Source: Beverwykella pulmonaria
Taxonomy: Eukaryota; Ascomycota; Dothideomycetes; Pleosporales; Melanommataceae
Assembly: GCA_001599595.1 (NCBI GenBank)
Contig: BCHH01000004.1
Location: forward strand, 2,958,778-3,022,777
Direction of reading: 5' to 3'
DNA length: 64,000 bases
Below the pieces are notes generated by a model. It was not told the origin of the DNA and did not search any database. It saw only the letters and a list, made by a program, of their open reading frames with translations. Positions 17,943 to 41,744 of the stretch are shown here, piece by piece. Positions within the stretch are counted from its first letter, which is position 1. Every line of letters begins with the position of its first letter. A program made the position numbers and the translations under genes.

Positions 17943-19077
17943 CTAACCTTTGGTGGTGGATCCGATGTCGCCCCATTTGATGTTAGAATAGACGACGTGA
18001 GTGCCAGGATGCTGAGCCTGGATGTTGGACGGACTTCCCTCTCCACTGCGGCAGGGTCCATTGTTACCAGAGTCAAGCCAGGCCATCTGCTGCGCAGCAT
18101 CGTTCCAGATGCTGATTGCCAGCACCACTATAATGTTTAAAGTCAGCAAATGAGTTCATTGGAAAGCGCGATAAGCTCTAGGATCTTTTCGAGACGAAGT
18201 TCGGGAAGAGAAGGTTTTGAAAATTTAGTAAATGTACAAGGTCAGGAAGCCACTTACTCCCGCGCCCAAGGGCCGCGCCCATGCCGGTTAGACCACCAGT
18301 CGACCCTTCAGAGCCACAGTTGGAAATTGACCCGCTGGTAATCTGTCGCCCGTTCTGGATATATTTGCGAGTGATGGATGACAGCTTACCGCCGCTGGCT
18401 TGGAATTGCGTAATGACCGTGAAAGGCTTCGACGTGTCAACTGTCTGGCCAGATCCCCAAAAGTTGCGCTGCCCGCTTTGGTATGGGTTGTACGCACAGC
18501 CATTTTTGTCGCAGCTGTTGCCATTGCACGGGTGGCCCGTCATAGCCGTTGCCCTGGAGTTGGCCTCGAGCACATCCATCTCATTGCAGCAGTAGCCCTG
18601 GCACTGCGCGTCGCAATAGCCCGTTCCGGCTGCAGCGTTACCCTTGCCGTCAGCAGCCATCTCTGATAGATAAAAAGCGCCGTTCTCCCCGCAAGGCACG
18701 TCTGAGTAGTCAACATCTACAGAGAGTTCCTGGCCGAGAAGCTTCATCATAACATATTTGCCGTCGTCGCCCAGGAGATAAACGCGCGGAGACGCGGGAT
18801 TGAGCTGGCTGCCCGATTTGACGTAGTGAGCCAGGGTCAGGGCGTTCCCTGAGGTAGAAACTCCCATGGCAGCGTAGTCGGCTGCCGTTCTCGAGCCTGC
18901 GGTACCTTTGGCATATTTGGAGTCCTTGTCAAGCACGATGGAAGTGTTCTGTTGCACGCAGCCTCCTGAGGTAGTACATTTCCAGGTCGGTAGCAAGGGA
19001 TGCTCCTCAGAGGTTTGGGCTATGGCCAGGCGAGCCAGCCAAGCTACCAGACCGATGGATGAGAGCTTGAAATACAT
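17943..19077 (-). CDS. GH7 endoglucanase (Cel7B/EG I type), 334 aa, no CBM
   Basis: Exons (reverse): 18258-19077 and 17943-18127, joined across a 130-nt intron (gtaagt ... attatag), restoring the codon for Met in [15 protein letters not shown]. The signal peptide ends near Ala20. Conserved GH7 blocks: [35 protein letters not shown]-like [15 protein letters not shown], and the catalytic EMDVLEANS with Glu166 (nucleophile), Asp168 and Glu171 (acid). The C-terminal block is [12 protein letters not shown]...GSPSNIQA to [11 protein letters not shown], ending in a stop. It hydrolyses beta-1,4-glucan internally by a retaining mechanism. The protein is shorter than typical EG I: the Cys-rich N-terminal loop and a loop before CCNEMD are missing although the exon is continuous. 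There is no linker or cellulose-binding module, unless a further 3' exon exists. Confidence 0.88.
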
Positions 19078-19649
19078 GGGTTAGGAATTCCTTCAAAACA
19101 TGAGGGGTTTGGTGCACAGTTCAGAAAGTTTGGGATGGGAGAGAGGTTTTAACATCCGCACCCATTTATTAATTATTTAATAACCGATCACGCCGCCCAA
19201 TGTGGGCGACATATTAAATATATTAACCGCTTTTAATGATCTTCGACCAATTCTAAATCGTAAACTAGAATGACACACTTATAATTGAATGATAAACAGC
19301 TCTTAATACTAACCAATATTGGATAGGCTTGGCCGTTTATCGCATAATATCCCCGCATACCCCAGATTCTACAAATAAGCAGTTCTGGGCTGGCGGCCGT
19401 AATATGGCCCCACACCATTATAACCTAACATCTTATATTATTAGGTGCACGTCCCTACCCAATATACAAATCTCTTCTAATCTCTTACCCTTAACCTAGA
19501 TGAAGCCACGAATTAGGCCCAACGGTTTTCCGACTTATATTTGCATCTAGAACCCAATTTTCATCACTAACCTGATTTGCATCGCAAACTTGTAGCTTTT
19601 TAAACTGGGTTTTTGGTACCTGTTTGCAAATAGCCAAGTTAATATTAAT

Positions 19650-20060
19650 GTAAGGGTATATGTACCATTCTGCACACGAACCAGCTTAATGTTGCTTATT
19701 TCGTGCCTTTTTGGTTGCATGGCGCAGTGGTGCAGAGTGCCAGGACGCGACACGCCTCACATGCTTGAGGGCTGTCACGAGAGGCTATCGGTAGTTTATG
19801 AACGAGGCTCAATTAGCTATCAGTGACTACAGATACTATCTCAGGCGCGCTAAGGCTACCATACAAGACGTTGCGTAAGGAGCTCAACCAGGGGTCCTTC
19901 GCGTTCAATAAGTACTCGGCATGGTTCGTGCATCAGGGGTCTAGTTTGTGCGTAGGCTGAGCCCAACTAGGGTTCAGTTGTGCATTCTAGGTTGGGTTGG
20001 TTAGTTGCCGAGCTCGTCGCTCGGAAGGTACTCTGTATTGTAGAATACAGTACTTGCCAG
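19650..20060 (+). repeat. Dispersed repeat, copy B
   Basis: Shares, in order, 'gcctttttggt.gcatggcgcagtggt', 'gaggctat.gtagt', 'acaagacgttgcg.aaggag', 'gttcaataagtactcgg', 'caggggtct' and 'ggttagttgccgagctcgt' with 6480-7195. It lacks about 300 bp of the middle. Many mismatches are transitions. It contains TGGCGCAGTGG, an A-box-like motif. Confidence 0.6.
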
Positions 20061-20240
20061 GCTCGTCGTTTGGAAGGTACTGTGTCGTAGAGTACAGTTC
20101 TTGTGACGGTGGTGCTCGCCAGCTCGACCGCACATTACATGAACATGTGTTAGATATGACGGTGGCAAGCGTTCGGCTCAAACATGCATCATAGAAACAC
20201 GTATGAGATGCGACAGTGGCGCACGCTCAGCTCAACCACG
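19998..20240 (+). repeat. Two adjacent short tandem arrays
   Basis: First array: two copies of about 48 bp containing 'gctcgtcg.t.ggaaggtact.tgt' and 'agtacagt.ctt' (about 19998-20100). Second array: two and a half copies of about 53 bp containing 'gacggtgg', 'ctcgacc/ctcaaac' and 'atgag/tagat' (about 20102-20240). Copies differ mainly by transitions. Confidence 0.5.
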
Positions 20241-20689
20241 TCGGACGGAGGGTTTTACATATTTATAAATAGCTATAGCACACAATTAATAAAGAACCGT
20301 AGCAAATATTAGTGTGCATAGGAATCGAGTTGCGTCAAGTCAAAGTACCCTTTATATATCTCGGCATGAAGGGTGTCTCGCCACGCAAGGAGGGGCGTTA
20401 GGAAAATATTACTGAGATGAAGTCAGTACCGGGAGAATGCTCCTGAGCTAAGCTTTCTCCTATGTCATCGGACCACGCGATATGCTAACACGGACACGAC
20501 GGTTGACCTAGAACCGTGATCCTGAAAGAATCACAGACGTGCAAACCTTTTCTCTTTTTTTGTACTACGTCCTGTATCTAATCTCGAACTCAACTAGGCT
20601 AATACTATTGCTATTTGTTGCTCGAGCATTGCCGCTGAATCTGATCGCAGACGAACCGTGGCATCCTAGTAACAGGATAATATTCCCAG

Positions 20690-20830
20690 GAGAATTCGCG
20701 CAGGCATCCGGGCGCCTGGGCAAATTCTCCTGGAATGCTGATCTTCCTAGGACGCTGATTTTCCTGGAGCGATTGTCCTGGGACGCTTATGTTCCTAGGA
20801 GGCTTTTCCGGGGACTCTAAGTTTCCTAGG
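20690..20830 (+). repeat. Degenerate minisatellite of TTCCTAGGA-type units
   Basis: Repeated 'ttcctaggacgctgat', 'ttcctggagcgattg' and 'tcctgggacgcttatg', then 'ttcctaggaggc' and 'tttcctagga'; unit about 20-24 bp with strong divergence. No coding significance seen. Confidence 0.45.
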
Positions 20831-21524
20831 ACCCAGTTTGGGCACTAAAGACTAACAGAGAATAAAAGCAGCACCGACCGAAGTAGAAACATGATAGCTT
20901 TTGTCAAACTCTGCCACCGGCATGGTTTAGGGTTAATCCGCTCTGTATCGTCATGTCCGTGCAAATGTATCGTGTGGCCCGTGACACTGGGACGCCCATG
21001 CCCCAGGGGCTTATTTCTGGGACTTATTACCCTACACAAAAAGCGATCTCTCCATATTTCGCCATGGCATGTACTACTCTCGCTATCGTTGACTGTATCG
21101 CTCTAGATGATGGCTTATTATCGAGAACCATCTTTACACTCTAAACGTCAGGCGGAAGAGCTCAAAGCGTACGTCTTTAAACTGGAACCTCCCTAAACGC
21201 CTGAAGAAAACAGAAAACTCAACCTCCTTTTCCTCACCTATTAATGCCGCTACCGTGGACTTGATCGTAAGGCGCCTTAGCTGCGTTCTTCATTTAGCGC
21301 CGAGTGCATGGACGAAGTCCAGCAAAATCGAGTGTTCGGCATTCCCAGAATCTTCGAGATTCATGTAAATCCCAATATTGTGAACGTATTGAAGGGCATT
21401 TCCGCCGAGCAATCAGAGAAGCCTTCCGCGGTTAAAAAAAAGATGATAAGGCGGAAACTTGGAAAGTCGCGCAGCGAGTTGGCTTATTGGAGAGCGAGGT
21501 GTGTGATTGGTGGCCAGACATAAA

Positions 21525-21672
21525 GAAAATTAGGGGAAAGAGATTAAGGAGAAAGCCTGGCGACGGGAGGGCGAGCATTTTATCGACGTCAAAAGCGGCG
21601 GATTGTCCGATAGGGATAAGCGTAGGACAGCACTAAACCCGAAGGGGGTGTCCCAGCAGAGATTACTATACT
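21525..21672 (-). repeat. Dispersed repeat pair, member 1
   Basis: Read on the minus strand it matches 38155-38316 (plus) in blocks: 'gtaatctc', 'ttcgggtttag.gc', 'cctacgcttatc', 'atcggaca', 'ccgcttttgacgtc.ataaaatgctcgcc', 'caggctttctcct' and 'atctctttccc.taat'. It abuts the 3' end of the GH6 gene. Both copies carry a similar reading frame (EEKAWRAFYRRQKR-like) broken by stops, so this is probably an old coding repeat. Confidence 0.6.
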
Positions 21673-21681
21673 CCATGACCC

Positions 21682-23067
21682 TCAACCACATTGCACTGCA
21701 CGCCTGTGTTCCCAGACCCGTTTGTGTAGAGACGATCTCCCTATCCAATTCATCACCAACATCTCAAAATACGCCTGACTCCACTCCCCTTTCTCTGGCA
21801 TTGGCTTGAACGCGTCCGTCTTCCCACAAAAGCTATTATACGTTCTCGCACTCGCGTCACTCGTCCCATCGCTGATACCACCCCATTGCGCCCACACAAA
21901 TGCATCAAGCATCTCATCTTTCGTACTGTTTGAAGGGGCCCGGCCAAATCCTGCATAATTAACGTTACACCAATCCGCCCACTCGAGTCGAATACCAGAT
22001 ACACCGGAGCGCGTTGTATCCATGATGGAGTGTGTCGGCATGCTAGAGTTCAGTTCTTTGACTCGTTTAGTCAGGATGGCGAGGTACTTTTTCTCGTTCT
22101 CAGCGGGGTTCGTGGCATCGTAGCAGTCTTTCTCTCGCACAAACTCCCCCGGAGATAAGTCCCTGGTCCCAAATCAGGTTGTGAACACCATCGAAGTAGT
22201 ACGACTCACCAGGCGTTGTAGTTGTTTACATTTAGCGCCAGTCCTCGCAATTGGGAGGGCTTCCCGGCTGCTTCATATGTTCGGATTAGTTCTTGGGCTC
22301 CAGGCTTTTGGTATTCCCGCCAGCCCAACCAGCCGCCATGTGCTGCGTCGAGGTACAGGATAACGTTGGGAAGGTTTAGATTCTTGAGGGCGTAGGGTAC
22401 GTTCTTGCGGTAGGAGTTCACGACGTGCGCGCACGTGCTCTGGTTGTTGGTGACGACAGTTCCGATTATCTCTGGTTCAATGATGAGGGCGAAAGCAGTT
22501 TTGGGGTGTGATTTGATGATTTTGGCAATTGCTGTGGGTGGTCAGATCTTCCGAGCAAAGAAGAAGAATTTTGGTCTTTTGGTTAGGCAGCTTACGGTCA
22601 ATGTACTCTTCTGCGTACGAGAATGGGTCATTTAAAGGTGGTGTTCCGATAGAAAGACACTCTTTGTATGGTAGGCCTGAGATGACGAGGCCGAGGACAT
22701 GATTGCATGAGACATCTTTGACAGCTTCTTCAATCCTGTCAATCTGCTCCCTTCCTTGACTGGACAGCCGTTATTTCAGCGCCTGATCGAGGTGTCAGGA
22801 GACATACATCCATACAAATGTTCCAACATCCGCAGCCTTCAGCGCCTTTTGTTTCAGTGCAGTGTCGTTGATAGCTGCAGTAGCCATCTCGACCTTCTTC
22901 CGGTAGAGGATGTTTGGATGAAGCGTAAAGTTCAGCCATATATTTGTTTGGGGGTCTAAAGACACCGGTGCATCGCATGCATTCCCATGGCCACTTCTGG
23001 AGATTGGAATGGTTGATGCAAATGTGCTGGATATGAACAACAACGGGATTACTATAAGGAGCTGCAT
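21682..23067 (-). CDS. Divergent GH6 (cellobiohydrolase II-like) protein, 405 aa
   Basis: Exons (reverse): 22808-23067, 22596-22750, 22210-22531, 21682-22162; introns of 57, 64 and 47 nt; 1218 nt in frame. The signal peptide MQLLIVIPLLFISSTFA is followed directly by the catalytic domain, without CBM1 or linker. Family blocks: TFVWMEQIDRIEE, ALIIEPEIIGTVVTN, YALKNLNLPNVILYLDAAHG followed by GWLGW, LRGLALNVNNYNAW, WADWCNVNYAGFG and SDGTSDASARTYNSFCG. GH6 enzymes cut cellulose from the non-reducing end by inversion. Here the acid Asp of 'IEPDS' is Glu159, the preceding 'LPDRDC' reads LPYKEC, and 'K-P-G-G-E' reads Q-W-G-G-I. Activity may therefore be altered or lost. The last residues after AYFEMLV differ from other GH6 proteins, so the 3' end is uncertain. 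Confidence 0.8.
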
Positions 23068-24494
23068 ATTGAATTTTGAATCTTGAGCTCGAAAATGGGG
23101 TTCAGTTTCAAGAGGCTCCCACGGATTAAGTATAAGACCACTCCATCGTGTGATGTTCTACTATAGATGAGGTCGCGGCCAGCCAATCAGGAATACCACA
23201 CCGACTGCGCGATCTGTTTAGCCTGATGAAGCGTGATATGAAATGTCAATCTATAGATGTCAGCCCTATATCAAATGTCGTATCGAACTGTTAAGAGGCG
23301 CAAACGTGACATTTACTCGTGCGAGATCATATTGAATAGAATTTGAAATAGAGCCATGTTAGGGAAGGAAGTGCTACCCAGATAATCCAGAGTATATTGT
23401 TTTTTCAGAGAAGACTTGAAATGCTCTAAACATATGGTTCATTAGAGATCTAATGTCCTGGTTCTGAGTGATCGTGTGACGAATCAGGACACTTCATTGC
23501 AGAAGTGGTGGAAATAATTTATTGTTGAGGGAAGAAGCGAAGCTGCGTTGTACGGCGTTTTCATTTTCTTAACTTGACACTTCTTTTCAAAAGTATTCCG
23601 GCTGTCGCCAAAGTGGTTCTTGTCAGTGTCGACACTACCGGTCACTTGGATCTGCTACTGACCAAATTGTCCGCTTTACTATATGTATTAGCTGTACACC
23701 ATATGCATCATGGAAATCACATCGATATATACACACACTACACATCATCATACCACCTTTCTTACAAAACCAGCCTGCAGAGAGAAAAATACAACACTCT
23801 TGGCCGTTGATCGATCTATTATTGCATCCCAAACCGCGTCAGCTTTGCACCCCTGCTACACCACAAATATCGAACCTTCAGAGCCTTAGGACAGTAACTC
23901 TATCAATACAGGAGATAATTTCAAGCTTTGAAGACACCTGCCCTCAAAAGGATGCATTCTAAAATTTCTCCGCGCGAAGCAGATTGGTGTAAAGACTTAA
24001 TGCGCTTACATGTTGCGGCATCAGACACTTAGCTCAGCGCATCGTATTCACGCTATGCCTAACTGACTCAAAGTGTGCCATCCTACCAAAAACCTCCATG
24101 TGCGGTCACGTGCTGGCCATCGCTAGTAATGCCGTCGATGCAACCGCTGCAAACTAGATCGGTTTCACATTAGGCTCTCAATCGACAGTCTTGTAAATTT
24201 AACCAGCCGTTTTACAAACTCAACATGTAGAGTAATATGTCAGCGCTACTTGAAGGGTTCAGAACTTTTGCATGAGGTTCATCTCGCTTGAGCATTGGCA
24301 GAGGTTCAACCTGGGGTTTTAGCGTGGCGCTTTGCAGGCCTCCTACTCGGACTGCACCGCAGCCTAGGTCGCGGACCTTTTCTCTGGCAGCTACGCCGTC
24401 TTGCACATACGTACTGCCCACTTCTTGTTTATGCTGTGGGCGCGTGTAATGTGTTTCATCTCGTCCCAAGACGCACTGGCGCTCTGATTGACCC
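23068..24494. other. Intergenic region between divergent GH6 and kinase-USP genes
   Basis: Holds both promoters. No coding frame beyond short ones; no repeats noticed. Confidence 0.45.
23217..23223 (-). promoter_or_regulatory. Possible XlnR/Xyr1 site (GGCTAAA) upstream of the GH6 gene
   Basis: TTTAGCC on the plus strand reads GGCTAAA on the gene strand, about 150 bp upstream of the GH6 ATG. This matches the known binding site of the fungal xylan/cellulose activator. A CCAAT box lies at 23183-23187. One 7-mer match could be chance. Confidence 0.3.
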
Positions 24495-27400
24495 ATGGAG
24501 AAGACCCCTCCCACCGACCTCGAAGCTTCGCTGCTTCAGCGTTGGTTCTCCGTGTCGCCGCCAGGCAAATCGACGCTCAAGCAACATGAGCGCTTCTCCG
24601 AGACCGACCTCAGAGACATCTCTGATGTGCTGCGGCGCGTTGGCCGGAGCTCGTGGTCGCGCATACCCCGCATCTACGCCGTCCTGCGGTTGCTCGACCG
24701 CCTCGATGTGATTGACCTCTTCCTCGCGCAGGCCATCTCCGACGTGTACTTCCCCTTTACACACCAGACCCTCCCACAATCGCTGAATCCGTCAGTTGCC
24801 CATGAATTCCTGCAGGTGCAGCGCGTGGTGCTGTCGAGCGCCCTCGACCTGGAGCGCGAGACCGGCCGACACCGACACTTTTCGAACGCCGACGACGTGC
24901 CGTTCATAAAGGTGGAGGAGCTAGGCAAGGGCGCCTATGGATACGTGGACAGGGTGATTAGTACCGTCAGCCACAAGGAGTATGCCCGGAAACTTATCCC
25001 ACGGGGTCGTACCTTCCAGCGCAACCAAAAGATCCTCCAAGACTTCGAACGCGAGTTGGGCACTCTTAAGAAATTGTGCCACCACCGACACATTGTGCAG
25101 CTCATTGGTAGCTACACTGATCCGCGGTTTGTGGGCATCATCATGTCGCCCGTCGCCGAGTGTGACCTGAAGGATTTCCTGAACAATTGCGCGGCCGGCG
25201 GCGAGAGCCATCCTCACTCGCAGAAGTCGTTCATCCGCTCCTTCTTTGGCTGCCTCACCTCTGCGCTGTCCTACTTGCACGACAACACCATCCGCCACAA
25301 AGACATCAAACCCCAGAACGTACTCGTTTCCCAACACACTGTCTACCTCACCGACTTCGGCATCTCGTTGGACTGGTCTGAGATCGGTCAAAGTACCACT
25401 ACAGGGCCAACGCCGAAGACGGCGCGATATTGCGCCCCAGAGGTATCCGACTATGCACCGCGGAATACTTCGTCCGATATGTGGTCGCTAGGGTGCGTAT
25501 TTCTCGAGATATGGACGGTTCTAAAAGGCGAGACCGTCGCTAACCTCCACACCTTCCTTGAAGCCAATGGGTCCTTGTCATCCTGTTACCATCTAAATAG
25601 GAATGTCACCTTCCATTGGATGAAAACTCTAGAGTCGAAACCAACTCTGGCCGACAATCCCCCCCTGGACTGGATCCGCCACTTACTTGTCGAAGACAAG
25701 GGTAAGCGCTGGACTGCTCGCCAGCTTCTCTTTGAAATCGAAACTGTCAATAGCAATCCCGAGGCCAAGTTCGCTTTTTCCGGGCAATGTTGTATGGAAG
25801 AGCTAGAGTCGGCCGAGAGTGTGATATCCTCTAATGGCTCGCTTTACGAGGATAGCCCTGTCCCGCAACCTCTACCCCCCGCTGCTCCTCTTACCTCCAT
25901 GCCAGATAAGGAAGAACAACCAAAAGCACCTGAGGTGTCAACATTTCAGCGTAACATTACGCAGAGCGATATGAATAACAATATCTCAAATTCATTGACC
26001 ATCGAGCCTCAGCTCGACAGTACTACGCTAACAGTGGAGAGCATTACAACGCCATCCGTGTTAGAAACTGCTCTAGGAGGTATTCCGAAAGATGGAGAGG
26101 GCGTGCTCGTGGCCGTCGGCGAATCTGCAGAAAGAAAATCGCATAGTAATGTTAATTATAACGATGGCCTTCATTCGGAGGGGATACCAGATTCCGACGA
26201 GAACTTCAATTGGAAGTTCTTGCGGAAAGTGATAACTCCGGGAGCCTTTCAGTCACGCCTGGACAAAGGCGCACTCAGAACACGAGGAACTGTGGGTTTG
26301 ACAAATCTTGGCAACACCGGCTGGATGAACTCCGCGCTCCAGTGCATTCGCAGTGTTGAAGAACTGGCAGTGTACTTCCTGCAGGGCGATTACAAGCAGG
26401 ATATCAACGCAGACAACCCTCTAGGTCAGGGCGGAGCTATCGCTAAGGTATTCGCAGGACTCCTGACAGCAATCTATAGTGAAGAGGGCACCACCTCATT
26501 TACGCCAAAGGTCTTCAAGAACCAACTCGGCCGCGCAATGCCGATGTACGCCGGATTCCAACAGCAAGATGCGCAAGAATTCCTTGCTTTTCTCATCGAC
26601 GCATTGCACGAGGATCTTAATAAGATTAGGAGGAGGCCTTACATTGAGTATCCAGAGTCCGATGAGAAGACAATAAACGATCCTGAAGCCATCAAAGTGC
26701 TAGGCGACAAGTTCCGCGCCATCCACCATTCTCGAAACGACTCGGTAGTCATGGATCTCTTCAACGGCTTCTTCAAGATCATTATGGCCTGTCCAGAGTG
26801 CGATAAAATCAGCATCACTTTTGATCCTTACAGCATGGTTACCCTTGAACTCCCGATGGGGCAAACCAGGCAGCAAATTGTCCGGTTCGTCCCTCTTGGT
26901 GGAAAGATTTGGGACGTGGAGGTGGATATTGAGCAGAATGCTACTATTAAGAATCTGAAGAAGTACGTGGGTAAGCGCTTCGGGGTCGAATGGAACCGCC
27001 TTATGGCATCCGAGGTCTGGAATCACAAGTTTTACCGTCACTTGGAGGATGCAGATACTGTCGAAGAGAGCAACATCAGCCAAGGCGATCAAATATACAT
27101 CTACGAACTTGATGGTGTTCCTAGCAACTGGCCGCCTCCAAAGAGGAAGAAAAAGCAGTCATTCACTCATTCCATATGGAATCACGATTCTGATGGTGAT
27201 ATTCCGGAATCTACTGATCCACACCACGACCGGGTGTTAGTCCCAATTTTCCATCGGGCTCCGAATTTGTCTTCCTCCCGAGCGCAGCAGTGGCTTCTGC
27301 AGCTGTGGCCGTCCTTTATTCTTATCAAACGCGAGGAAGCCAAGGTCTACGATACGATCTTGAAGAAGGTCCTCAGCAAAGTTGACCAAATGACTACTCG

Positions 27401-28432
27401 GAATGTTTTTGCTGAGAGCAGCAGTCCTTCCTTGTCACCTTCGCACTCCCCCAGGATCCTTAGACCCAATAGCTTTGTTCCTCTCGAGTTCCGTCGACTC
27501 TTCGAGATGAAGCACACGCGTGCTAGCAAGGAATTTGTCACTACAGGTTGGAGCACGATTGATGGAAACAAGACATATGACGCCATCTCCAAGCGCGTTC
27601 GAGTTCCCTCCGCTAGAGAGTTGCCCATACAATCGTTTGATGCCCCTAGCGAGTCCGAAGACTACAACAACGAAAGCCTAATCAAATTGGGAGAGGCCAT
27701 TGTACTTGACTGGACCCTAGATGCTTTTGATGATTTTTTCCACGGCACGGGTGCCAGTGATCAGCGGGGCATGGAAATTCTCCAATTCGTAGAGACGCTC
27801 GAGAATGAGGAGCTCCTAGTTAAGAAGGCGAAGCAAGCTGCTCGCCTGAAGAATGGCATCACCCTTGAGGAGTGTTTCGCGGAAACATCCAAGGCCGAGG
27901 TGCTCTCTGAAGAAAACGCTTGGTACTGCAACTGTTGTAAGGAGTTGCGACGCGCTACGAAGAAGCTAGAACTCTGGACTGCACCCGACCTTTTTGTTAT
28001 TCACCTGAAGCGCTACAGCTCACATCGTGCTTCCAAAGGCAAGATTGACGTGCTCGTTAACTTCCCCATAGAGGGCTTGGACTTGACTGGCAAGGTTGGC
28101 TTGCCCGAGGAGAAGGATCTGGTGTACGATCTTTTCGCTGTAATCAATCATTATTCTGCTAGCCCGAGCAGTGGGGTCTATACCGCCTTCGCCAAGAACC
28201 TCTTCGACCAACAGTGGTACGAGTACAGCGGTACGTATTATCGTCCTTTATATGCTACTTGCGCTGATGGTTCCCAGACTCCAGCGTGCACAAACGTGCT
28301 GATCCTAATGGCGTCGTAACGCCAGCCGCGTATGTTCTCTTCTATCGCCGTCGCTCAAACGGCCCTCTAGGCCCTCCAGAGCTCCGAGAGATTGTCCAGG
28401 CGTGGCGGAACTCCGACTATGAGAGAGCGTAG
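24495..28432 (+). CDS. Protein kinase fused to a catalytically degenerate ubiquitin-specific protease, 1296 aa
   Basis: Exons 24495-28230 and 28278-28432. The 47-nt intron restores WYEYSDSS and a canonical USP tail (AAYVLFYRRRSNGPLG) in frame. Residues 1-135 are the helical module typical of an expanded fungal kinase family (SWSRIPRIYAVLR, DVYFPFTH). The kinase spans about 138-420: glycine loop GKGAYG (144), Lys166, RHKDIKPQN (Asp270), DFG (Asp287), CAPE; it looks active. After a 150-residue disordered linker comes a Ubp12-like USP (about 598-1280). The Cys box reads NLGNTGWMNS, with Gly609 in place of the catalytic Cys. The His box ends SSGVYTAF, with Val1228 in place of His. Asp1246 and both zinc-binding CxxC pairs (ACPEC, CNCC) remain. 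The USP is therefore probably a ubiquitin-binding pseudoenzyme. The DUSP domain usual in Ubp12 proteins is absent. Confidence 0.85.
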
Positions 28433-28554
28433 TTCTGAAAGGAGCCGCAGCCGAGACTCCACGTGATGAGGTGGACGTCCCATAATAGGACTATGAAGAC
28501 GGATACGCTGATGATGAGCTTTCCATTAGTCCCTCTCTCTCTACCTTCCGTCAT

Positions 28555-29108
28555 CGTGCACACCGACAGCTCTCGAAAGAAGAAAAAACTCATCTCCAGC
28601 AATACCTCACTCTAGAGGAAGAGAAAGCTATTATTAAAGTTTTGCTATTAACCTCTGATCTCAGGCAACCTGTGCGGATAAATTTTATGTCTTTGCCGGC
28701 CTTAAGAGTCGACCGCCAGCGGTCCACGACAAACAAATCAATCAAGCTTCCAGACAAGAACTGGCTTCAGGTCTTCGAGAAACGCCGTCCAGGACTCGAA
28801 GGAAGATGAACCAGGGCGGTAGACTAGGAAAGTCAGAGGATTAACATACATAATAAGATCACAAACTAGTTTAAAGTAATTAGAAATGTACTACAGAATC
28901 TTCAATTAGAAAATGTCATAATATGGACGAGACGGGAATCATGTTCAGCATGCTAGGCTCCGTCAAAACTCTTGTAGGTAAGGATGACCCACGAGGCTCC
29001 AGAGGCGTGGGTGTTAAGCGGACAATGGTAACTGCCGTTGAGTGTATAAATGCTGACAGTAGGTCGCTGCTTCCCTTTATAATCTGGTCAGTTTCAATAG
29101 CTCACCCC
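28555..29108 (+). pseudogene. RIP-damaged Fot1/pogo-type transposase fragment
   Basis: The frame from 28555 reads AHRQLSKEEKTHLQQYLTLE, then SDLRQPVRINFMS, then KNWLQVFEKRRPGLEGR, matching the N-terminal half of fungal pogo-class (DDE_1) transposases. It is then interrupted by TGA and two TAG codons where the family has Arg, Trp and Trp, all explicable by C-to-T/G-to-A changes. A one-base deletion just before 28923 leads into MDETGIMFSMLGSVKTLVGK and VKRTMVTAVECINADSRSLL, including the first catalytic Asp. Homology ends near 29108, and the rest of the DDE domain is missing. It lies about 120 bp after the kinase-USP stop codon. Confidence 0.8.
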
Positions 29109-29409
29109 GCGCAATAGCTCACCTCACTTGCTAAATTGCTCCACATGTTGCGAAGCTCAACTTGAGCCATCAAGCCTTCAATCATAATCGTCCCCTCTAT
29201 CATTCCTGTTAAGGCCCTCTTAAACTTCGGGCCAGATGACACTAGCGCATCTACTACGACCTCTAAGGATCAAATATTACATAGTGAGTATCATTACACA
29301 TCGTCAGTGTTTACTTCATCAAATTAAGTCGCATACCACACGCCAATCCGCGACAGTTACCATCACTCCCGAGTTTGCCTGAAAATTACTATATAACATC
29401 ATCAAGGCC
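29109..29409. other. Gene-free spacer
   Basis: Between the transposase remnant and the end of the HET gene; nothing recognised. It may contain further decayed element sequence. Confidence 0.35.
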
Positions 29410-31344
29410 CTATACTATATGTACCAGAGCTTTCTCGGGGATTTCTAAAAAGATATCCTCGCTATGTCTAAGGATTCCCACGCGCTGAAATAACCTCTCA
29501 GCTCCATCAATTACTCGAAGAACGAGACTTTTGCGCTGGTACTGACTTTTAGTCAACGAGAGGCAATACAGAACCTCACCAGATGGGACAAAACTAGGAC
29601 CCTGAATCCCTAAAGAATAGTCATTACCAAGAGGTAGCGGTTTTTTGTGATGAGGAACTTGGAGCTGGCTAAAGCGTCCATCGCCTTCATAGCTTAATAT
29701 TCCCGGAACCATGTAGCCAGATATCCTAAGTTTGTAACCATTTTCATCTCGGTCGAATATGAGGCCAGGGCATCCGATGTCGATGACATCACAGAGATTC
29801 TCATTTATGTCGGCTGGCAGAGGATCATACATGATTGGCGCGGACACACTCGCCCAAGACCACGTCGGAATCCCTTCGGTTCGAGTATATGACCGTCCCA
29901 TTTTGTTTCTCCACGCTCCGGGATCCCAAACCTGCCAACTGAGGTCCTCCACAGCAGAGTCACTCCAGATCCCCGCATGGCAAGTCGAATCCCTTGCTTC
30001 TTGGAATAACTTCGCGATCCCAGCTATCGCAGGCAGCCTGTCTTTTTCGTACGTCAGTTTCAAGTTGCTGTACATGACGATATTTTGGCGCCACTCGAAC
30101 GCAAGAGTACTACTGCTACTGCTCTCCAGACTCTTCGCGACTTCGGATTTCTTGGATCCCATAATAACGACGTCGCACTGGCAGCGACATTCGCATGATA
30201 CACCACTTCTACATTCCCAGGCCAGCTCCCGCTCGAGAAAATGCAGGTATCTAGGTGCTAGCATGCGCTCTTGGTATACCCAACCTCGGGTTCGCAGAAT
30301 CCCTGGGCTGATATCACTGTTGCTTTCGGGAAAGATAGGGTCTATGAGCGCACGGTGGTAGAGAGGTTCTCGCACATAAACCTCCCAAGCTGTCGGGATT
30401 TTCTCGAGGGAGCTGAAAGAGATGCTCTTGAAGCACTCGATGCGAACAGGATCTCCAGCATAACATCCGCCGTTACCGCTCGCCGAGTTTGTCGCCGCAA
30501 GACAGATTACGCAGTTTCGATAGATCTCAGCCATTTGAGCAGCCTCGCGCTTCCAATCATTTTCATCGTCCTGGACAATGCATCTATGCCAAGTATGTGA
30601 GTATTCTTACCCTGCATTAATGTAAGACAAGACTTACAGAGAATCTATCCACAGGTAGCGAATGCCCAGGCGCCTTGTGAAATCAACGGCCTCCCTGAAC
30701 GTCTTTGGAAGGGCTGTTAGAGGTATTTCTTCCTTGTGAGATTGGATGTTGTTCGCGGTCGTTATGAGTATACGTGCCTTACCCCAGCAGTGGCTAAGGC
30801 ATGCATATGGTGCTCCCCGATGTCCAGTTTCGTAAAGCCTAATCGTCTTTGCAGTTTCCGAATTCCCAACTTCTCCCAAGTCTAGCACTCTGGTAGGAAG
30901 AGGGGTGTCCTCGAGTATCCGACAAAGCTCATGCTGCTCCGAGCATGCAGCAAGCGTTTCTTTGACAAAGTTCAAGGACGTTTCTGAGTCGGTCCAGCCT
31001 GTGAGGTGATCTTGGATTTTGATGCTGTTCCATGGTGTAGGCTCCAGGCTGTACAGTAATACTTCTTCGAGTTGACCAACTTTTAGTCGGATGGTGTGGT
31101 GGAGAGTCATTTTTATAGGCTGAATGTCTAGATACGAATTTTTGAAAAGTCGGCGTAGTATTTGTTTGAGTAGGGCGCAACTCAGGCAACTGGTGGAGGT
31201 CGTCTGGATGGAGGTCCAATTAAACGTGTGACTCGCATGCTCCCCATTCTCCTTTGGTTGATCTGGGAACGTGATTGGGTTGAGGTTCTTGCAAATGGGG
31301 CAAGTCTCGGAAGTCAAGGGCGAGTGCTTTGGTGTTACCTCCAT
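29410..31344 (-). CDS. HET-domain (heterokaryon incompatibility) protein, 626 aa
   Basis: Two exons (reverse): 30638-31344 and 29410-30583, with a 54-nt intron in the middle of the conserved block, giving LWIDSLCIVQDDENDWKREA across the junction. The N-terminus has a Cys-rich start (CPICKNLNP, SCLSCALLK). The HET domain runs from about residue 180 (APYACLSHCWGKA) through TALPKTFREAVDFTRRLGI to AEIYRNCVICLAAT (about 280). Then GWVYQERMLAPRYLHF and GIPTWSWASV follow, standard for this family. HET domains act in allorecognition and trigger cell death when activated, often downstream of NLR-like sensors. No partner domain is fused here. The gene is convergent with the kinase-USP gene, with a transposase remnant between them. 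Confidence 0.9.
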
Positions 31345-32996
31345 TGATCATTAAAATTGGACGTCTTGCGTGGAGAGCAAACATAGAGATTGATTGGGGC
31401 TCAGGACGTGAGGAATGGTGAAATCAGGGTTATTGAGGCTGCTTAGAGTTATTTGGCAGCGAGGAGCGGGGCAAGAAACCGGTGAACCGTTCTCGTATAA
31501 GTATATATGCCAAGGTACTCTATATCTCCTGGGCACTAGCTTACGTGACAATCACATGACCAAAGCTATTGTCCCACAGTATGAGGCGTAGAATGAGTCC
31601 AGTGCTGCTGCAAACGTTCTGACTGGCCGGAATGCATATTTGTGAAAACGCACCTATTCTCTCTTTATCTATTTATCACTCCGGCCTGCAGGAAGTAGGT
31701 AGTTTGGTTGTGGAACGCTTGTATTGGGGGCCAGAGCTCGTCTCGCCTCACGTAATTGACTGATAGGCTCAGGCTCGTACTCAGGCTCGTGATAGGCCCC
31801 GTGAGCGTTGTGCTTGCCTTGAAGCTTGCCGTGAGCTTGGCAAGACAGGCCTATCAGAGTGGAGATAGTAGAGCTTCTCTATCAATCAGTGAGGTGTTGA
31901 TCTGCCTGAACGGAGACCGAGACGAAGCTGGGAGATGCTATCTAAAAAACAAAAACAAAAAACAATGCTGAAAGGGACGGCGGGTGGGTGATTCAAATCG
32001 TCGATCAAGCGTCGCGTGAGAGGCTTGATGAGATGAGCTCACATGAGGTGGATGTGATGAGGCTGAGATATCTTGTCGCGAGAATTCTTGAAGATGAGGT
32101 GCTTGGCAGCCTAACTATAAATAGAACAATACAGTATTCAAATTCTACGTTTGTTCTATGTTTAGCAGTTACTAAAACATCTCGAGCCCATGCTAGACGG
32201 ATGACGTTTGTACTTGCTAATGGAGGAAACGACGAGACTCATGTTTTCAAGAGTTGATACATTCCTGGACTTGATTGTGAGTGATTAGTGTATAGTTCAA
32301 CTCTGAGATGCCATGTACAATTGCGAAGATTCTTTCATGCCTATCTTGCTTAGTGAGTACAATCAACTTTACATTAGTGTGTGTTCCCAGAACAAAGCAA
32401 CGTACTGGGTACGAGTTACGAAATGCACGAAATTGTAAGTAGTAATTACTAGCTGCCTATTCACTGCCTGAGTAACAGAAACAGTTCTTAAACGCAAGGT
32501 GAACTTCTCACTTCACGCTCTATGGCTCTCATTCCATCATGCATTGCTCCTCTCCAATCCATGTCGCCGATATTTAAAAGCGCTAGTAGCACAAAATTTG
32601 GAGTCTTTCCTTACGATACGTTACACCACTCAAGGTAGAGGGGCAAATACTCCGACAAAATACATCGAAGAGCCATCCAAAGTTAATAAACAGGACGCAG
32701 GGTCCTTGGAGCAAGTTTATCCTTGGTAGGGACCTCACGAATATGACCCTGGGGCTTGGGGTAGCCTCGAAAGAGCTCCACCTTTATGAGCCTTTATGGG
32801 CTGACTGAAATATGACTTCTTCGATGTATGGGGTGTGAAACAAGAATGGTAAGTCAATAGTTGCATAAGGCATTTTTGTATCCGACTAACAACCCTTTTG
32901 ACGATCTTGAAACCCTCTGACGAATCCCCGAAAGCTCTACCAATCTCGATGCATCCAGCATAATCCCTCTTGGCCATCTCTGCCTCCCATATTGTC
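31345..32996. other. Mostly gene-free interval
   Basis: At 31770-31840 short direct repeats of 'actcaggctcgt' and 'cttgcc' occur. A 92-codon stretch on the minus strand (33010 down to 32735) looks like a frame-shifted continuation of the SET gene and is treated in the findings. Otherwise nothing supportable. Confidence 0.4.
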
Positions 32997-35469
32997 TTAT
33001 TTAGACCCAATAAACTCTTCTACGCCCACCTCTGTACCCGTAATAACAACATACCAACACTTCGCCACCTCTAAACAACTCTCCCTCAACCGCCCCTCGC
33101 CCTTCACTTCCCATGCCTCGGCCAGATACTTAAGCGCCCGCACGCCCTCTACATTAATCAAGCCTGAGCAACTCTTTACTTCAAACGTGCTGCTCTCTAT
33201 ACTTGTAAGGATGCCAAAGTTCCGGAGGAGTTTCGTCGCGTACTCGATTGTCTTGTCAATGTTCTTGACGCCGCGCCAGGCTTCGGCGAGGAAGAGCGTG
33301 GGGTGCACAAGGGCAAGGCGGGGGAGGAAGGCGTACTTATCCTCCTCTTCTCCATTGGCAGGTAGGTACAGTGCTTCTAGTTCCCGCAGACCACGAGCAA
33401 TCTTCTTGATAGCAGTCACAGTCACTGCACCCTTATCACCTAACATGCTAACTTTACTCTTCAACTCTTCAAACACCCTCTCCCTCTCTTTCCTCACGCC
33501 CTCACTCACTCCACCATCAGCAACACAAAGTGCGCAATCACAATCAAACCCCCACGTCGCCATATACTTCTCCTGTCTCTCGGTAATATCATATTCCGGG
33601 CTAATATACTGGTGAGTGATTTCCTCGCCGGCGGCAATGGACCGTGTGGCGCGCATAAAGTGCATATCCCCAATGAAAGTGCGGATCGCGTTCGGCAAGC
33701 ACGAGTGGTTGATATACGAGGCATGGATCCAGAAGCCGTTGCGGAGCTCGGGGTTGGAGTTATGGGTTGGTGGAGAGTGTAGGAGGGAAGAAGAGGTTAT
33801 GGGGACGCTGAAGCAGTTGTAGCGGCGGATGAACTCGGTGCGGAATCTGGTGTTGTGTTAGCTGTGCAATACGAAGAAATGCTGAGACAGTTGGGATGGG
33901 AAATTAAGAAAGGTAGCGACTCACACGTCGACAACACCCTCACCCTCTCCATCATCTAGGTTGTCTTCTACCTCCTGCACCCTATTCCCCTTCCAATACC
34001 CCCCATCCCCAAGTTCAAAAAACTCCTTCCTCAAACTCCCATTCCACCTCAACTTCTGCACCAACTCTTTAAACAGCAACGCCCCCGGCCGCGGCGCCGC
34101 CGTCCCATCCCCTAGACTATATAAGAGACAATCCGAACTCCTATCCTGGATGAAGTACCCTGGAAGCACGAACGCCTTCTCAGCGGTAATCAGATCTCCG
34201 ACCTTGAAAGCTCTCTTCGCGAATAGCCCACGGCCATGGGACGGCGTGTCGCGGATCTCGGTGTCAGCAATGTACGTCGCGGCGTCCACATGAAGGGTTA
34301 GTGGACCGACGTATGAAGATATGAGAGGGAAGTCATAGTTTGGCACGTCTGTATAGACGCCAAGATCGAATTTGATTCTGGCGGCGAGGTCTTTCAAGGC
34401 GCGTGGAATATTTGGAGCTATGGCGTGAGGGTCTGCAGTGCTGCGGTTGTGGAGCCAGCTTTTCACGTTTGAAGAGGTTGCCATGGGGTGCGAGGAGAGG
34501 GAAGATGTCGATTGAGCGTGAATGGAGATGGCGAGGCTCAGGTCGTGGGTTGCTGCATCGAGGCGAAGGAGGACGATATTCACACCGCACTTCTTGCGGT
34601 GGAGGTCGATCTCAGCTGTGGGGTTAGGGTGTGAAGTGAGGTAGGCAATGCCGTGATTGTAGCTGGGTGCGCTTAGTAGGTTTGGTAATAGGAAGGATTA
34701 AAGCGAGGAAAAGAGTATATCGTATAGGAGAGTGGAACATATCTTACCAGTCTAATGCCCGTCGAAACTTCTTCGCCAGGAACATATGATCTCCCTCCTT
34801 CTTCCAGTATGCACTGTCCTTCTCCTCTCGTGTTCCGTTCAACTTCATCTCCCCCTTCCATGTGTCCGGCACCTCTATACTCTCTTCATCCAAAATCACC
34901 ATATCAGAAGGATGATCCACCCTAACCTGATAACCACCATCCACTAACCTGCTCCAACACGGCTGCTTTACGACAACAATACTACCCTCGACCAAAATCG
35001 GATCCGCTATCGAGTCCTCAAGGTTGCAAACCGTCAGTCGCGCTACATTGCCGGTGACATCTTCCACAATGGTCGTGCTGGCGGAATGAACGTACGGCGA
35101 GGTGATTGTGCGAAGGAATATTGCAGTCCTGGGATCCCTTTCATTAATTTTCAGGTCATCGAGGTAAATCTGTGTTGCGTAAGTAGGGATACTCGCGGTA
35201 CACTAGAAACAAGAGCTTACCTTCTTGCACTGCTCATCGTTCCATTTCATCCAAACAGGCGGATACGGTAGTGGCAAAATCATGCTCTTGACTGGCAGGT
35301 TCCCCGATGCGAGAATCTGAAGATGTGCTTCGTGACTTTTGAGTAGCGCGTCCCGTGATGTCCTAGTGGGGGGCTTTTTTCCGGTCTCGTCTTTGCCATT
35401 TTTGATGAGGTCTTGGAGGCGTTCAGGAGACTCTTCGTAGGTAATTTGAAAGTTCTTGGGGAGGGCCAT
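32997..35469 (-). CDS. TPR/SET-domain (SMYD-like) protein, 752 aa
   Basis: Exons (reverse): 35221-35469, 34748-35169, 33925-34662, 32997-33846; introns of 51, 85 and 78 nt; 2259 nt in frame. Helical TPR-like repeats start near residue 200 (KEGDHMFLAKKFRRALD, then AEIDLHRKKCGVNIVLLRLD). The SET domain begins about 360 (SHGRGLFAKRAF) and continues in the last exon with YINHSCLPNA (about 515), AGEEITHQY and the post-SET CDCALC near 572. The C-terminal part is helical (KTIEYATKLLRNFG, VRALKYLAEAWEV). SET proteins methylate lysine using S-adenosylmethionine; substrates of this fungal group are unknown. The stop at 32999-32997 may be premature, because the neighbouring frame continues with similar composition. 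Confidence 0.8.
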
Positions 35470-36064
35470 GATACCAGAAAATAAATGAGACTTGAGAAAG
35501 AGTAGTGAATGCAGCCCAAAGCAGGTTGCAGGGTCTAAAGTCGACTGTGGTTGCGAAGGTAGTCGAGCGGCAATACAGGGATGGTGGAAGTTGAGAGAGA
35601 AAGATATGTGGCAAATGCGACGTAGTTAGTGATGTATGCTGCGCGTTTATGAAGTTATGGCATCGAAATGCTGCTGGACGAGGTCTTTATTTTGTGCGGT
35701 CCATTATGTCAAGGTGGCCTTCACGATGCGGCTAAAGCCGACGCACGACGCACTCTATTTCACCGCGAGACTAAATTAACTGCGAGCATGATTGGGCGGA
35801 AGGTGTGCCTGCATGGCGGATTAGCATACAAAATACATGGAGGCACTGAAATCCGGGGTAGATATTTATGTACTTTGTTATAGTGGCTTAGTTTATTCCT
35901 GCAGGTACAGCGCATTGCAGATCAGAGTCCAGAATTACCGCAATAGATACAGTTCCTCAAATGACAGCAAACATGGACGTGAAAGTGGTATGCAAAAGTG
36001 GCAAAATATTCATTCGAAAGTATAGTCAAGAAGAGAAAAGAGGGGCAACGTGAACATCCGCCCC
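35470..36064. other. Short intergenic region
   Basis: Promoter side of the SET gene and 3' side of the xylanase gene. No repeats or genes seen. Confidence 0.4.
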
Positions 36065-37431
36065 CTACAAGCACTGCGAATAGTAGTCATTCTGCTTTGT
36101 GCAGGTTGTTCCACTCACACAGACAGTGGCTCCAGTATATCCGTTCCCGCCACATTGTCCCCATTTGGCAACTGTAGCGGCTGATGTCGACGTTACAGCC
36201 GGTGCAGCCGATGTGACAGCTTTCGTAGGAACAACAACCGATGAAGTAGCTGCTACAACTGCACTCGTTGTCGCGGTTCCAGAAGCTGCAGAGCCCCATG
36301 CGTTAAGGATGGCATTGTACACTTCATCCTTCTTCACGAGGTTCGAGTCCCACGGAAGGGCAGCTCCTTGTCCAGAGAACACGCTTGGAATCCAAGAATA
36401 TTTGTCCGTGTAGTCCCAAATCGTGAAGCCGACACACTTCGCTACAGCCTTGCATGCACCGACGGTTGCGGCATAGTCTTTCGCTTGCTGGGTAACCGCA
36501 GCTGCTGTGGCGGGAGTCGTGGTTCGGATGTCTAATTCGGTGATGGCAACCTCAACACCGAGAGCAACGAATGCGTTCATATTTGTGGTCTGGGCGGCTT
36601 GGGAAGGAGTAGATCCAACGATGAAATGTGCTTGCATACCAACACCGTCAATCTTAGCGCCGTACTGCTTGATGAGCTTGACAATATTCTGCGCGCCGGT
36701 AGATTTAGCGCCCGCGGATTCGATGTTGTAGTCGTTGTAATAGAGCTTCGCGGCCGGGTCAGCAGCTGCGGCAGTGGCGAAGGCGATAGGAAGGTACGCA
36801 GGACCGATGGTGTCATAAAAGACGTTCGAGCGGTAGGTACCATCCTCGTTGAGAGCTTAGAAGATGTATTAGCAGTGTGTCTAAAAGAACAAGAGATGTG
36901 GCTAACCTTCGTTGGCAACATCCCAATGCAAACACTTCCCCTTAAAGTGGGTAACCTCGTTGGTGATGTGGTTTTTCATAATGGAAATGAGAGTCGCATT
37001 GTCAAATCCTCCAGTTTTGACCCAGTTCGGCAGCTGGCTGTACCATACCAACGTATGGCATCTGACCTTTTGGCCATTTTTCTCAGCCAAGGCGACAATG
37101 GCGTCGCCGTTGGCGTAGTTGAAGGTTCCTCGGGATGGCTCAATGGTGTCCCACTGCATCGAGTGAGCTCCTGGTAAGACATACACAAAGAAAAGAGTTG
37201 GCATACCTTCATCGCATTGCCAGGAGTGATTTGTCCAAAGTCGGCTGTGTTGCTCAGCTCAGTAACGTATGCGGTATCCGTCAGCTCAGGATTGTCTGTC
37301 GCGCTGCCAAAGTACGCCTTTCCAGCGGCGACGGCACGAGTGTTCAAACCATCTGCGGCCCGGCGCGCAAATGGAGAGCAGACGACACTAGTCGCCGCAA
37401 GGAGCAGAGTATAAAGTGTAGCAGGAACCAT
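36065..37431 (-). CDS. GH10 endo-beta-1,4-xylanase with C-terminal CBM1, 420 aa
   Basis: Exons (reverse): 37207-37431, 36907-37153, 36065-36855; introns of 53 and 51 nt; 1263 nt in frame. The signal peptide is followed by a dibasic ARR that suits Kex2 processing. GH10 blocks: [38 protein letters not shown] with acid/base Glu157, and AITELDIRT with nucleophile Glu264. The catalytic domain ends near residue 340. A Ser/Thr/Ala/Val linker leads to a full CBM1 ([11 protein letters not shown] to YYSQCL, about 386-420) that binds crystalline cellulose. The enzyme cuts xylan internally with retention. The usual HTLVWHSQ reads HTLVWYSQ, and the Gly before it is Cys. Confidence 0.92.
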
Positions 37432-40690: not shown

Positions 40691-41585
40691 CATCTCACTA
40701 AAGGATGGATTTGGACTAAGCAGCTGGATTTACGGGAAGGCCTAGATGATCTTCAAACATCGATTCTCTAGTCAAGTATGCCTATATGTGTACCACTATT
40801 TGTGCAATTCTCCTTTTGAAGAATTGGTCTGCCCTTCTGGTCCAGGATCCTGGCTCAGAAGATTCCTATTAGGGTCGAGTCGATCTGTGTGCGCTCCAGC
40901 AATTTCCCACGCATATTCCAGTTCCTCAGGGTCACTAGGGTGCCCTAGGGGAGATTGTGGAATTTTGTCGTTGTCTTCGATATCTTCGATGAAGCCGGCT
41001 GATGCAGTTCATGAAGGTTGAACTAATTCTGCTACAAGCTGGATATTGGCTTCTTCACGGGAAGTGTCCAGATTCCTCTTGGATCATGTAGGTGGCTTCC
41101 CCTTCTTGTAAGCTTGCCTTCTACTAGTCATTATGCCGATTCCTTGGGATAGATTGATTTGACTAGCGTTTTCGCCCCGGCTACTAATCCGGTGGAGGAT
41201 GAAGGATTCGAATTGTGAGGGTGTAGAGGCAGAGGAGGCGAGGGGCACCAAAAGAGGAGGAGCAGCAACCAATATATTATATGAGGTGTCTGATGAGACG
41301 AACCGTTGGGGCTCTGAATAGGCCCAAGGACGGATTATATATGTCCCGACACGTGACCGTTTATGGGCCGTGGGGTTTCCGATGGTACCCGTAAGAGGAA
41401 GTGACAGATACGTCCCAGCCATGTTCTGATAAGTGGGCCTGACCACTTTCCTAATCACACTTAGCGCAGCAGCCCACACAACTAGGCGAAGATTTAAAAT
41501 TGCCCCACTTCCTTCTTGGCCATGTAGAGCAATTAATTAACTATATAAATAATTTATTTACCACACATAACATCAATCGAATGAG
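40691..41585. other. Gene-free interval before tRNA-Phe
   Basis: No convincing coding frame or repeat. Confidence 0.4.
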
Positions 41586-41737
41586 GTCGCTTTAGCTCAC
41601 TTGTAAGTTCTCCGTTTCACAAGATGCATCGCATCGGTAACTGACCTTGCTTAGGGGAGAGCGCCAGACTGAAGTTCACTTCGGTTGTACACCTGTGCGG
41701 TATCTGGAGGTACTGTGTTCGATCCACAGAAGCGACA
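41586..41737 (+). tRNA. tRNA-Phe(GAA) with two intervening sequences
   Basis: The acceptor stem GTCGCTT (41586-41592) pairs perfectly with AAGCGAC (41730-41736), discriminator A41737. D stem GCTC (41595-41598) pairs with GAGC (41659-41662). Anticodon stem CCAGA (41664-41668) pairs with TCTGG (41703-41707), loop CTGAAG...A, anticodon GAA at 41671-41673. T arm is CTGTG-TTCGATC-CACAG (41713-41729). The 27-nt segment 41675-41701 sits between positions 37 and 38, the standard intron site of eukaryotic nuclear tRNA-Phe. In addition, 41603-41654 interrupts the D-loop. Without both inserts the molecule is a standard tRNA-Phe with an 8-nt D-loop. The internal A-box (TAGCTCACTTG) and B-box (TTCGATCC) survive, and a T7 terminator follows. 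The Levitt pair 15-48 is C-A instead of G-C, a possible sign of decay. Confidence 0.8.
41603..41654 (+). other. 52-nt GT-AG insertion in the tRNA D-loop, resembling a spliceosomal intron
   Basis: It starts GTAAGT (ideal fungal 5' splice site), ends TTAG, and has GTAACTGAC about 10 nt before the end, a good branch-site match. Its length equals that of protein-gene introns in this window. Removing it exactly joins ACTT to GGGA, giving a standard D-loop. Whether it is removed by the spliceosome, by tRNA endonuclease, or not at all cannot be seen from sequence. Confidence 0.65.
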
Positions 41738-41744
41738 TTTTTTT
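41738..41744 (+). terminator. RNA polymerase III terminator
   Basis: Seven Ts immediately after the tRNA discriminator base. Confidence 0.75.

Follow-up and report, generated by a model that had tools for sequence, protein, structure and literature searches.

A probable U2-type spliceosomal intron in the D loop of a fungal tRNA-Phe(GAA) gene, with further inserts of the same kind in other tRNA genes of the genome

The locus studied here raises the question of how a tRNA-Phe gene can carry, in its D loop, 52 additional nucleotides that look like an mRNA intron, and by which machinery they might be removed. In the textbook view, introns of nuclear tRNAs are removed by the Sen endonuclease. We examined the locus in its 64-kb window (the whole stretch of DNA that was analysed, part of contig C4) and in the 45.6-Mb, 31-contig assembly to which it belongs.

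The tRNA-Phe(GAA) gene and its truncated relative

Neither ARAGORN (bacterial setting) nor Rfam (gathering score) reported a tRNA in the 64-kb window. Direct reading of the sequence, and ARAGORN applied to the spliced gene, gave the following features (insertion sites are written as the two flanking tRNA positions).

41542-41549, plus strand: TATA-like element about 40 nt 5' of the gene, from sequence
41586-41737, plus strand: tRNA-Phe(GAA) gene, from direct sequence reading
41586-41602, plus strand: exon 1, GTCGCTTTAGCTCACTT, tRNA positions 1-17, from acceptor pairing to 41730-41736 and ARAGORN on the spliced gene
41603-41654, plus strand: 52-nt spliceosome-type intron at 17/18, with GTAAGT donor, AACTGAC branch-like motif and TAG acceptor (CTTAG 3' end)
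41639-41645, plus strand: branch-like motif AACTGAC, its A at 41644, 11 nt from the intron 3' end counting the A
41655-41674, plus strand: exon 2, positions 18-37, anticodon GAA at 41671-41673, from ARAGORN on the spliced gene
41675-41701, plus strand: ordinary 27-nt Sen-type intron at 37/38, ARAGORN i(38,27)
41702-41737, plus strand: exon 3, positions 38-73, B box GTTCGATCC, from ARAGORN on the spliced gene
41736 and 41737, plus strand: acceptor 3' end and discriminator A, from sequence
41738-41744, plus strand: run of seven Ts, Pol III terminator-like, from sequence

The coordinates, lengths and motifs that an earlier note had given for the gene and its insert are correct on direct reading, as is its statement that excision leaves a D loop of 8 nt. 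Without the 52 nt, ARAGORN called tRNA-Phe(gaa) with intron i(38,27) and all stems paired, whereas the unspliced gene received no call at the default score; a complete GAA cloverleaf of tRNA-Phe is obtained once both introns are removed. Among single-base shuffles of the insert (n = 4000, any of 7 registers), 0.1% gave a donor...branch...AG insert of this kind. On these and the genome-wide sequence features described below, we put at about 90% the probability that a functional tRNA-Phe(GAA) gene of Pol III type here bears a U2-type spliceosomal intron in its D loop, one of at least 17 in 14 tRNA genes.

The earlier note had cautioned that the gene could be a dying copy, pointing to its C15-A48 pair. 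A search of the assembly with the locus found one relative, on contig C3. This copy is truncated and a pseudogene.

G000:C3:2370211-2370291, minus strand: tRNA-Phe pseudogene (L002), without D-loop insert, anticodon GAG, ending within the T arm

Its D loop is uninterrupted (ACTTGGGA), and it differs from the window copy at 3 of 81 compared positions, located in the D stem, the anticodon (giving GAG) and the 37/38 intron. The missing 3' 19 nt were not found within 1.5 kb beyond the end of the copy, where the best match has 7 mismatches. The copy stops in the T arm at CTGT, which is followed by GTAAGT; the break is possibly the trace of another intron and a later rearrangement. Searches of this assembly with two conserved segments (up to 3 mismatches) and with the spliced tRNA (E up to 10) found no other complete tRNA-Phe, a sole-copy status that is relative to this assembly and to searches that skip common words. 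This largely answers the caution: no complete tRNA-Phe(GAA) other than the interrupted gene turned up, and it is the insert-free copy that has decayed. The C-A pair is present as described, but it is not a sign of decay, since the C3 copy shares both bases; the oddity therefore predates the insertion and is ancestral.

Over the 5' flank and first exon, 57 of 67 positions are identical between the two loci, and these homologous 5' flanks indicate that the tRNA-Phe gene was duplicated as DNA. The simplest history is that the window copy gained its intron after the duplication; precise intron loss from the C3 copy is a conceivable alternative.

Interrupted tRNA genes across the genome

tRNA genes were collected from four sources: an Rfam tRNA-family scan that scored 63 of 1174 candidates, a T-arm-plus-terminator pattern, a tRNA-Pro pattern and the window's own gene. 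Of the 45 readable genes obtained, 14 have an insert outside 37/38 and 31 do not, a count that omits the Phe pseudogene and the Cys-like L073 (both read) and the weak RF00005 matches C14:149327 and C1:2554459 (19.9 bits). The ratio 14/45 does not give a genome-wide fraction, because interrupted genes escape gene finders and even an intact gene was absent from the RF00005 list. That gene, Pro(AGG) copy 1, was found by the tRNA-Pro pattern alone, and given this gene it would be wrong to take an isotype missing from the RF00005 list as interrupted. L073 (G000:C17:711695-711764, minus strand) resembles a tRNA-Cys without interruption, scores low (31 bits) and may come from an organelle.

In all, at least 17 inserts were found in at least 14 tRNA genes on 9 contigs, 16 of them in the 13 genes other than Phe. 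With this distribution, an assembly artefact was rejected. The inserts lie in the acceptor stem, D arm, anticodon, variable loop and T arm, at the following positions, numbered by hand.

Phe(GAA): 17/18
His(GTG): 53/54
Ser(GCT) copy 2: variable arm
Leu(CAG): 10/11
Leu(AAG) copies 1 and 2 (L038, L072): 6/7 in both
Leu(TAG): 53/54, GC-AG variant
Val(AAC): 52/53
Arg(TCT), L059, around G000:C4:852556: 3/4, 24/25 and 43/44, plus an ordinary 37/38 intron; gene of 237 bp
Glu(CTC): 11/12
Trp(CCA): 53/54
Cys(GCA), L074/L075: 58/59
Pro(TGG): 58/59
Pro(AGG) copy 2, L078+L079, G000:C5:1635460-1635760, minus strand: 9/10 and 34/35 (within the anticodon), plus an ordinary 37/38 intron

None of the 17 occupies the canonical Sen position 37/38. 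Introns at 37/38 are common in this genome, and several of the host genes have one in addition to their insert.

Removal of the inserts makes these genes recognizable as tRNAs. At its default score, ARAGORN called all 14 spliced genes, 13 of them with the expected anticodon (the Val gene was called Thr through another 37/38 placement), and only 2 of the 14 unspliced ones, one with the wrong identity and the other with the wrong limits. For 12 genes, calls obtained without the linear flag numbered 7 spliced and 0 unspliced, and with the flag 12 and 2. A relaxed score threshold yielded some call for 10 of 12 unspliced genes, with the right anticodon in four.

Comparison of paralogues points in the same direction. 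Minus its two inserts, Pro(AGG) copy 2 equals the intact Pro(AGG) copy 1 at every position outside the 37/38 intron. The two Ser(GCT) genes are identical at 80 of 81 exon positions, and only one has the intron. Leu(AAG) copies 1 and 2 share 90 of 91 nt in exon 2, including an identical 37/38 intron, with diverged flanks; their spliceosome-type introns occupy one and the same site, yet their alignment (35/58) is at the level of shuffled sequence. Exons that are conserved while introns drift are the pattern expected of working genes.

An opposing explanation takes the interrupted genes to be pseudogenes or copies in decay, with intact genes elsewhere doing the work. Intact paralogues do exist for Ser(GCT) and Pro(AGG), and others may have been missed by the assembly or by the searches, as Pro(AGG) copy 1 was by the RF00005 list. 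It is hard to reconcile with this explanation that sequence search found no other complete Phe, His or Trp gene, the spliced His and Trp queries matching the interrupted gene alone in this assembly. Decay would also not be expected to keep stems paired, to spare the Leu(AAG) exons while their introns drift to the shuffled level, or to place GY...branch...AG at 17 of 17 limits, and the Phe copy that did decay is without an insert. We therefore regard general decay as very improbable. If the assembly is complete and nothing was missed, the interruption of the sole Phe, His and Trp genes makes the reading of UUY, CAY and UGG codons dependent on intron removal.

Splicing and transcription signals

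The 17 inserts are 47-72 nt long (median 52). At the 5' end 16 have GT and one has GC, and at the 3' end all 17 have AG; since limits were chosen by tRNA structure and motif jointly (those of Arg intron 1 and of the Pro(AGG) copy 2 introns partly by motif), this grammar is not wholly independent. Donors are GTAAGT (7), GTAGGT (2), GTAAGC (2), GTAAGA (2), GCAAGT, GTTAGT, GTACGT and GTAATT (1 each), with GTAATT and GTTAGT the weakest, and acceptors are CAG (10), AAG (4) and TAG (3). A YTNAY branch-like motif is present in 17 of 17 inserts, its A 10-15 nt from the end, and 15 conform to the strict CTRAY, the exceptions being CTTAC in Leu(CAG) and TTAAC in Val. Per insert, 0-0.43% of shuffles followed the same rule in any of 7 registers for 14 inserts, and 0.1-0.375% did for the last three, for which donor position 5 was treated less strictly so that GTAATT qualified; these shuffles preserve base composition only. 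The inserts, their grammar, the restoration of the tRNAs and, in searches of this assembly, the lack of other complete Phe, His and Trp genes are all read from the sequence.

Four protein-gene introns of the window, identified by eye, served as the mRNA comparison.

2180-2246, plus strand: mRNA intron GCAAGT, 67 nt, GC-AG, in the multicopper oxidase gene; branch-like A 19 nt from the end
2283-2341: mRNA intron GTAAGC, 59 nt; branch-like A 19 nt from the end
36906-36856, minus strand: mRNA intron GTTAGC, 51 nt; branch-like A 14 nt from the end
22595-22532, minus strand: mRNA intron GTAAGC, 64 nt; branch-like A 11 nt from the end

Their lengths bear out the claim that the D-loop insert has the size of local mRNA introns (47-72 nt for the tRNA inserts, against 51, 59, 64 and 67 nt in this small, eye-read sample). 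In two of the four, the branch-like A, at 19 nt, falls outside the 10-15 nt of the tRNA inserts. The GC-AG variant is common to the multicopper oxidase intron and the tRNA-Leu(TAG) insert. An automatic scan of the window for intron grammar showed no enrichment (106 observed, 119.2 in shuffles), because motifs alone are too loose to locate introns without gene context, and motif ranking alone did not single out the mRNA introns of the window.

The window also contains genes for a HET domain protein and for GH7, GH6 and GH10 with CBM1. Together with the multicopper oxidase and the shortness of the mRNA introns, this gene content suggests a filamentous ascomycete. The cellulase/xylanase-type GH7, GH6 and GH10-CBM1 genes lie within 20 kb (18178-37431, minus strand), and a stop near 22207 in the GH6 frame could be due to a further intron. 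At 24495-28319 (plus strand), an intronless frame of 1274 aa joins a protein kinase domain to a following ubiquitin carboxyl-terminal hydrolase domain, a pairing that looks unusual. A 20-bp tandem repeat (5.2 copies, 96% matches) is located at 7040-7142.

In their ends with GTRNGT-like donors, their branch motif and their local mRNA intron length, the tRNA inserts have the features of U2-type introns. In PMC5832005, fungal introns are described as having a RCTRAY branch 6-36 nt from the acceptor and GC-AG as a common exception, and the tRNA insert grammar matches this description. The spliceosomal interpretation given earlier to the D-loop insert is thus strongly supported by sequence, with 17 such inserts in 14 tRNA genes.

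Alternatively, the tRNA-splicing endonuclease (Sen/EndA) might excise the inserts as ectopic introns, as happens in archaea and certain algae. Disrupted tRNA genes of the endonuclease type are known in algae as well as archaea, and in the Guillardia nucleomorph many ectopic introns show no defined bulge-helix-bulge (BHB; PMC3978253), so that a missing BHB would not by itself exclude this reading; 37/38 introns, moreover, are common in this genome. In our set, the central 4-bp helix of a BHB was found at 0 of 17 junctions, whereas shuffled inserts gave an expectation of 2.36. Donor, branch-like and acceptor signals are present in all inserts, one of them GC-AG, whereas GY...AG ends occur in none of the 29 37/38 introns placed by ARAGORN (9-34 nt). 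Cleavage by the endonuclease consequently appears to us extremely improbable. Self-splicing was set aside on length, 47-72 nt being too short for it.

As to the origin of the inserts rather than their removal, they might be mobile introner-like elements that spread as near-identical copies. Fungi have introner-like elements (PMC4457414), and the many different insert positions are consistent with separate gains. The Phe insert, however, has no near copy in the genome at E 0.001, and the first 14 inserts, compared with each other, score slightly higher than shuffled ones over the whole length (13.3 against 11.8) but are at the shuffled level once splice signals are stripped (9.9 against 9.6). 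The introner idea, which the earlier note had brought up, thus finds no family of near-identical copies, whether in the comparison of the Phe insert with the genome or in that of the 14 inserts with each other, and we hold such an origin to be quite improbable.

A run of at least five Ts lies at +2 to +16 in 14 of 14 interrupted genes. In the unspliced genes the B box core is kept at 7 of 7 positions in 12 of 14, the exceptions being the two with 58/59 introns; the core survives six T-arm introns because the intron-terminal AG supplies the G before TTC. In some genes introns appear to break the A box, and only 7 of 14 have an upstream TATA match. TTTT occurs within 1 of 17 introns, fewer than the 4.09 expected (P 0.049), which weakly fits a Pol III demand, and the deficit of TTTTT (0 against 1.27 expected, P 0.262) is not significant. 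Judged from B box and T-run, the hosts do not appear to be Pol II transcripts, the usual hosts of U2-type introns. Among other Pol III-type genes, no long insert was seen in U6 (one full-length match over the cut-off, 47 of 2588 candidates scored), and no interruption in 5S (23 genes over the cut-off, 120-121 nt, 47 of 2265 candidates scored).

As a rule, the spliceosome is recruited in connection with Pol II and the cap. It could be, then, that the spliceosome does remove the inserts but acts on embedded or read-through Pol II transcripts, a reading that the apparently broken A boxes of some genes would also allow. The T-run in 14 of 14 genes, the B box core in 12 of 14 and the rarity of TTTT in introns argue against this, as does the U6 of S. 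pombe, a Pol III transcript that is spliced (PMC10484740). Pol II precursors are in our view improbable, and a Pol III origin of the precursors is preferred.

Implications and comparison with known systems

In the pathway that we infer, Pol III would transcribe the tRNA-Phe gene from its internal B box and upstream TATA-like element up to the T-run terminator. The spliceosome would remove the GT-AG intron in the nucleus, the tRNA would then be able to fold, and Sen endonuclease and ligase would next excise the 37/38 intron. Folded tRNA is the substrate of Sen, RNase P and RNase Z, and the spliceosome should therefore act first. Transcription by Pol III, spliceosomal removal and this order of reactions are all deduced from the signals and structures described above.

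A second class of nuclear tRNA introns is, we think, quite likely in this fungus. The spliceosome would then have to act on Pol III transcripts to yield many essential tRNAs, among them the only Phe, His and Trp; several would need the spliceosome and then Sen, one gene would undergo three spliceosomal events, and one intron would split the anticodon. If so, the spliceosome would act on Pol III transcripts with a first exon of down to 3 nt plus leader, presumably before folding and Sen cleavage, and tRNA supply would be tied to splicing capacity. The gains are probably recent, since for Phe, Ser and Pro an interrupted copy exists beside one that lacks the intron. The genome would thus offer a natural system for studying spliceosome recognition of Pol III RNA and intron gain in structured genes. 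tRNA finders overlook such genes, and genomes that seemingly miss tRNA isotypes may contain more of them.

The earlier note called removal of a Pol III transcript's intron by the spliceosome unprecedented. That was too strong, as the U6 snRNA of S. pombe is a Pol III transcript with an mRNA-type intron (PMC10484740). Among small structured RNAs, U3 and U6 alone were described in 2017 as known frequent hosts of introns (PMC5832005), and a 2026 review classes tRNA splicing as spliceosome-independent (PMC13149111). Our literature search, which lay outside preprints and most subscription journals, found no published spliceosomal intron in a tRNA gene; a prior report is possible, and a tRNA as host lacks precedent as far as we searched.

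Several known systems share part of these features. The canonical Sen introns co-occur at 37/38 in several of the same genes and differ from the inserts in position and sequence signals. Cyanidioschyzon, green algae, the Guillardia nucleomorph and archaea likewise have tRNA genes interrupted or rearranged in the D, T and other arms. Those genes are described as endonuclease/BHB types, many of the Guillardia ones without a defined BHB (PMC3978253), whereas the inserts reported here combine GY-AG ends with a branch motif and have a BHB helix at none of 17 junctions. Fungal introner-like elements are likewise short spliceosomal introns at new sites, but here no near-identical family is seen. Comparable too are U6 of S. 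pombe and other fungi and fungal U3, in which a spliceosomal intron also interrupts a short structured RNA, U6 being likewise a Pol III product (PMC10484740, PMC5832005). The hosts here are instead tRNAs, with 17 introns in 14 genes, while the U6 match of this genome (47 of 2588 candidates scored) is without a long insert. Finally, the rDNA of lichen-forming ascomycetes contains ectopic spliceosomal introns that are removed by the fungus and, after transfer, also by yeast (PMC8527467). These too are spliceosomal introns in a structured RNA not made by Pol II, the host there being Pol I rRNA. Whether the tRNA introns are novel depends on the grouping: set against Sen introns they would be a second class of nuclear tRNA intron, and grouped with the U6 and rDNA introns they would be a variant of these.
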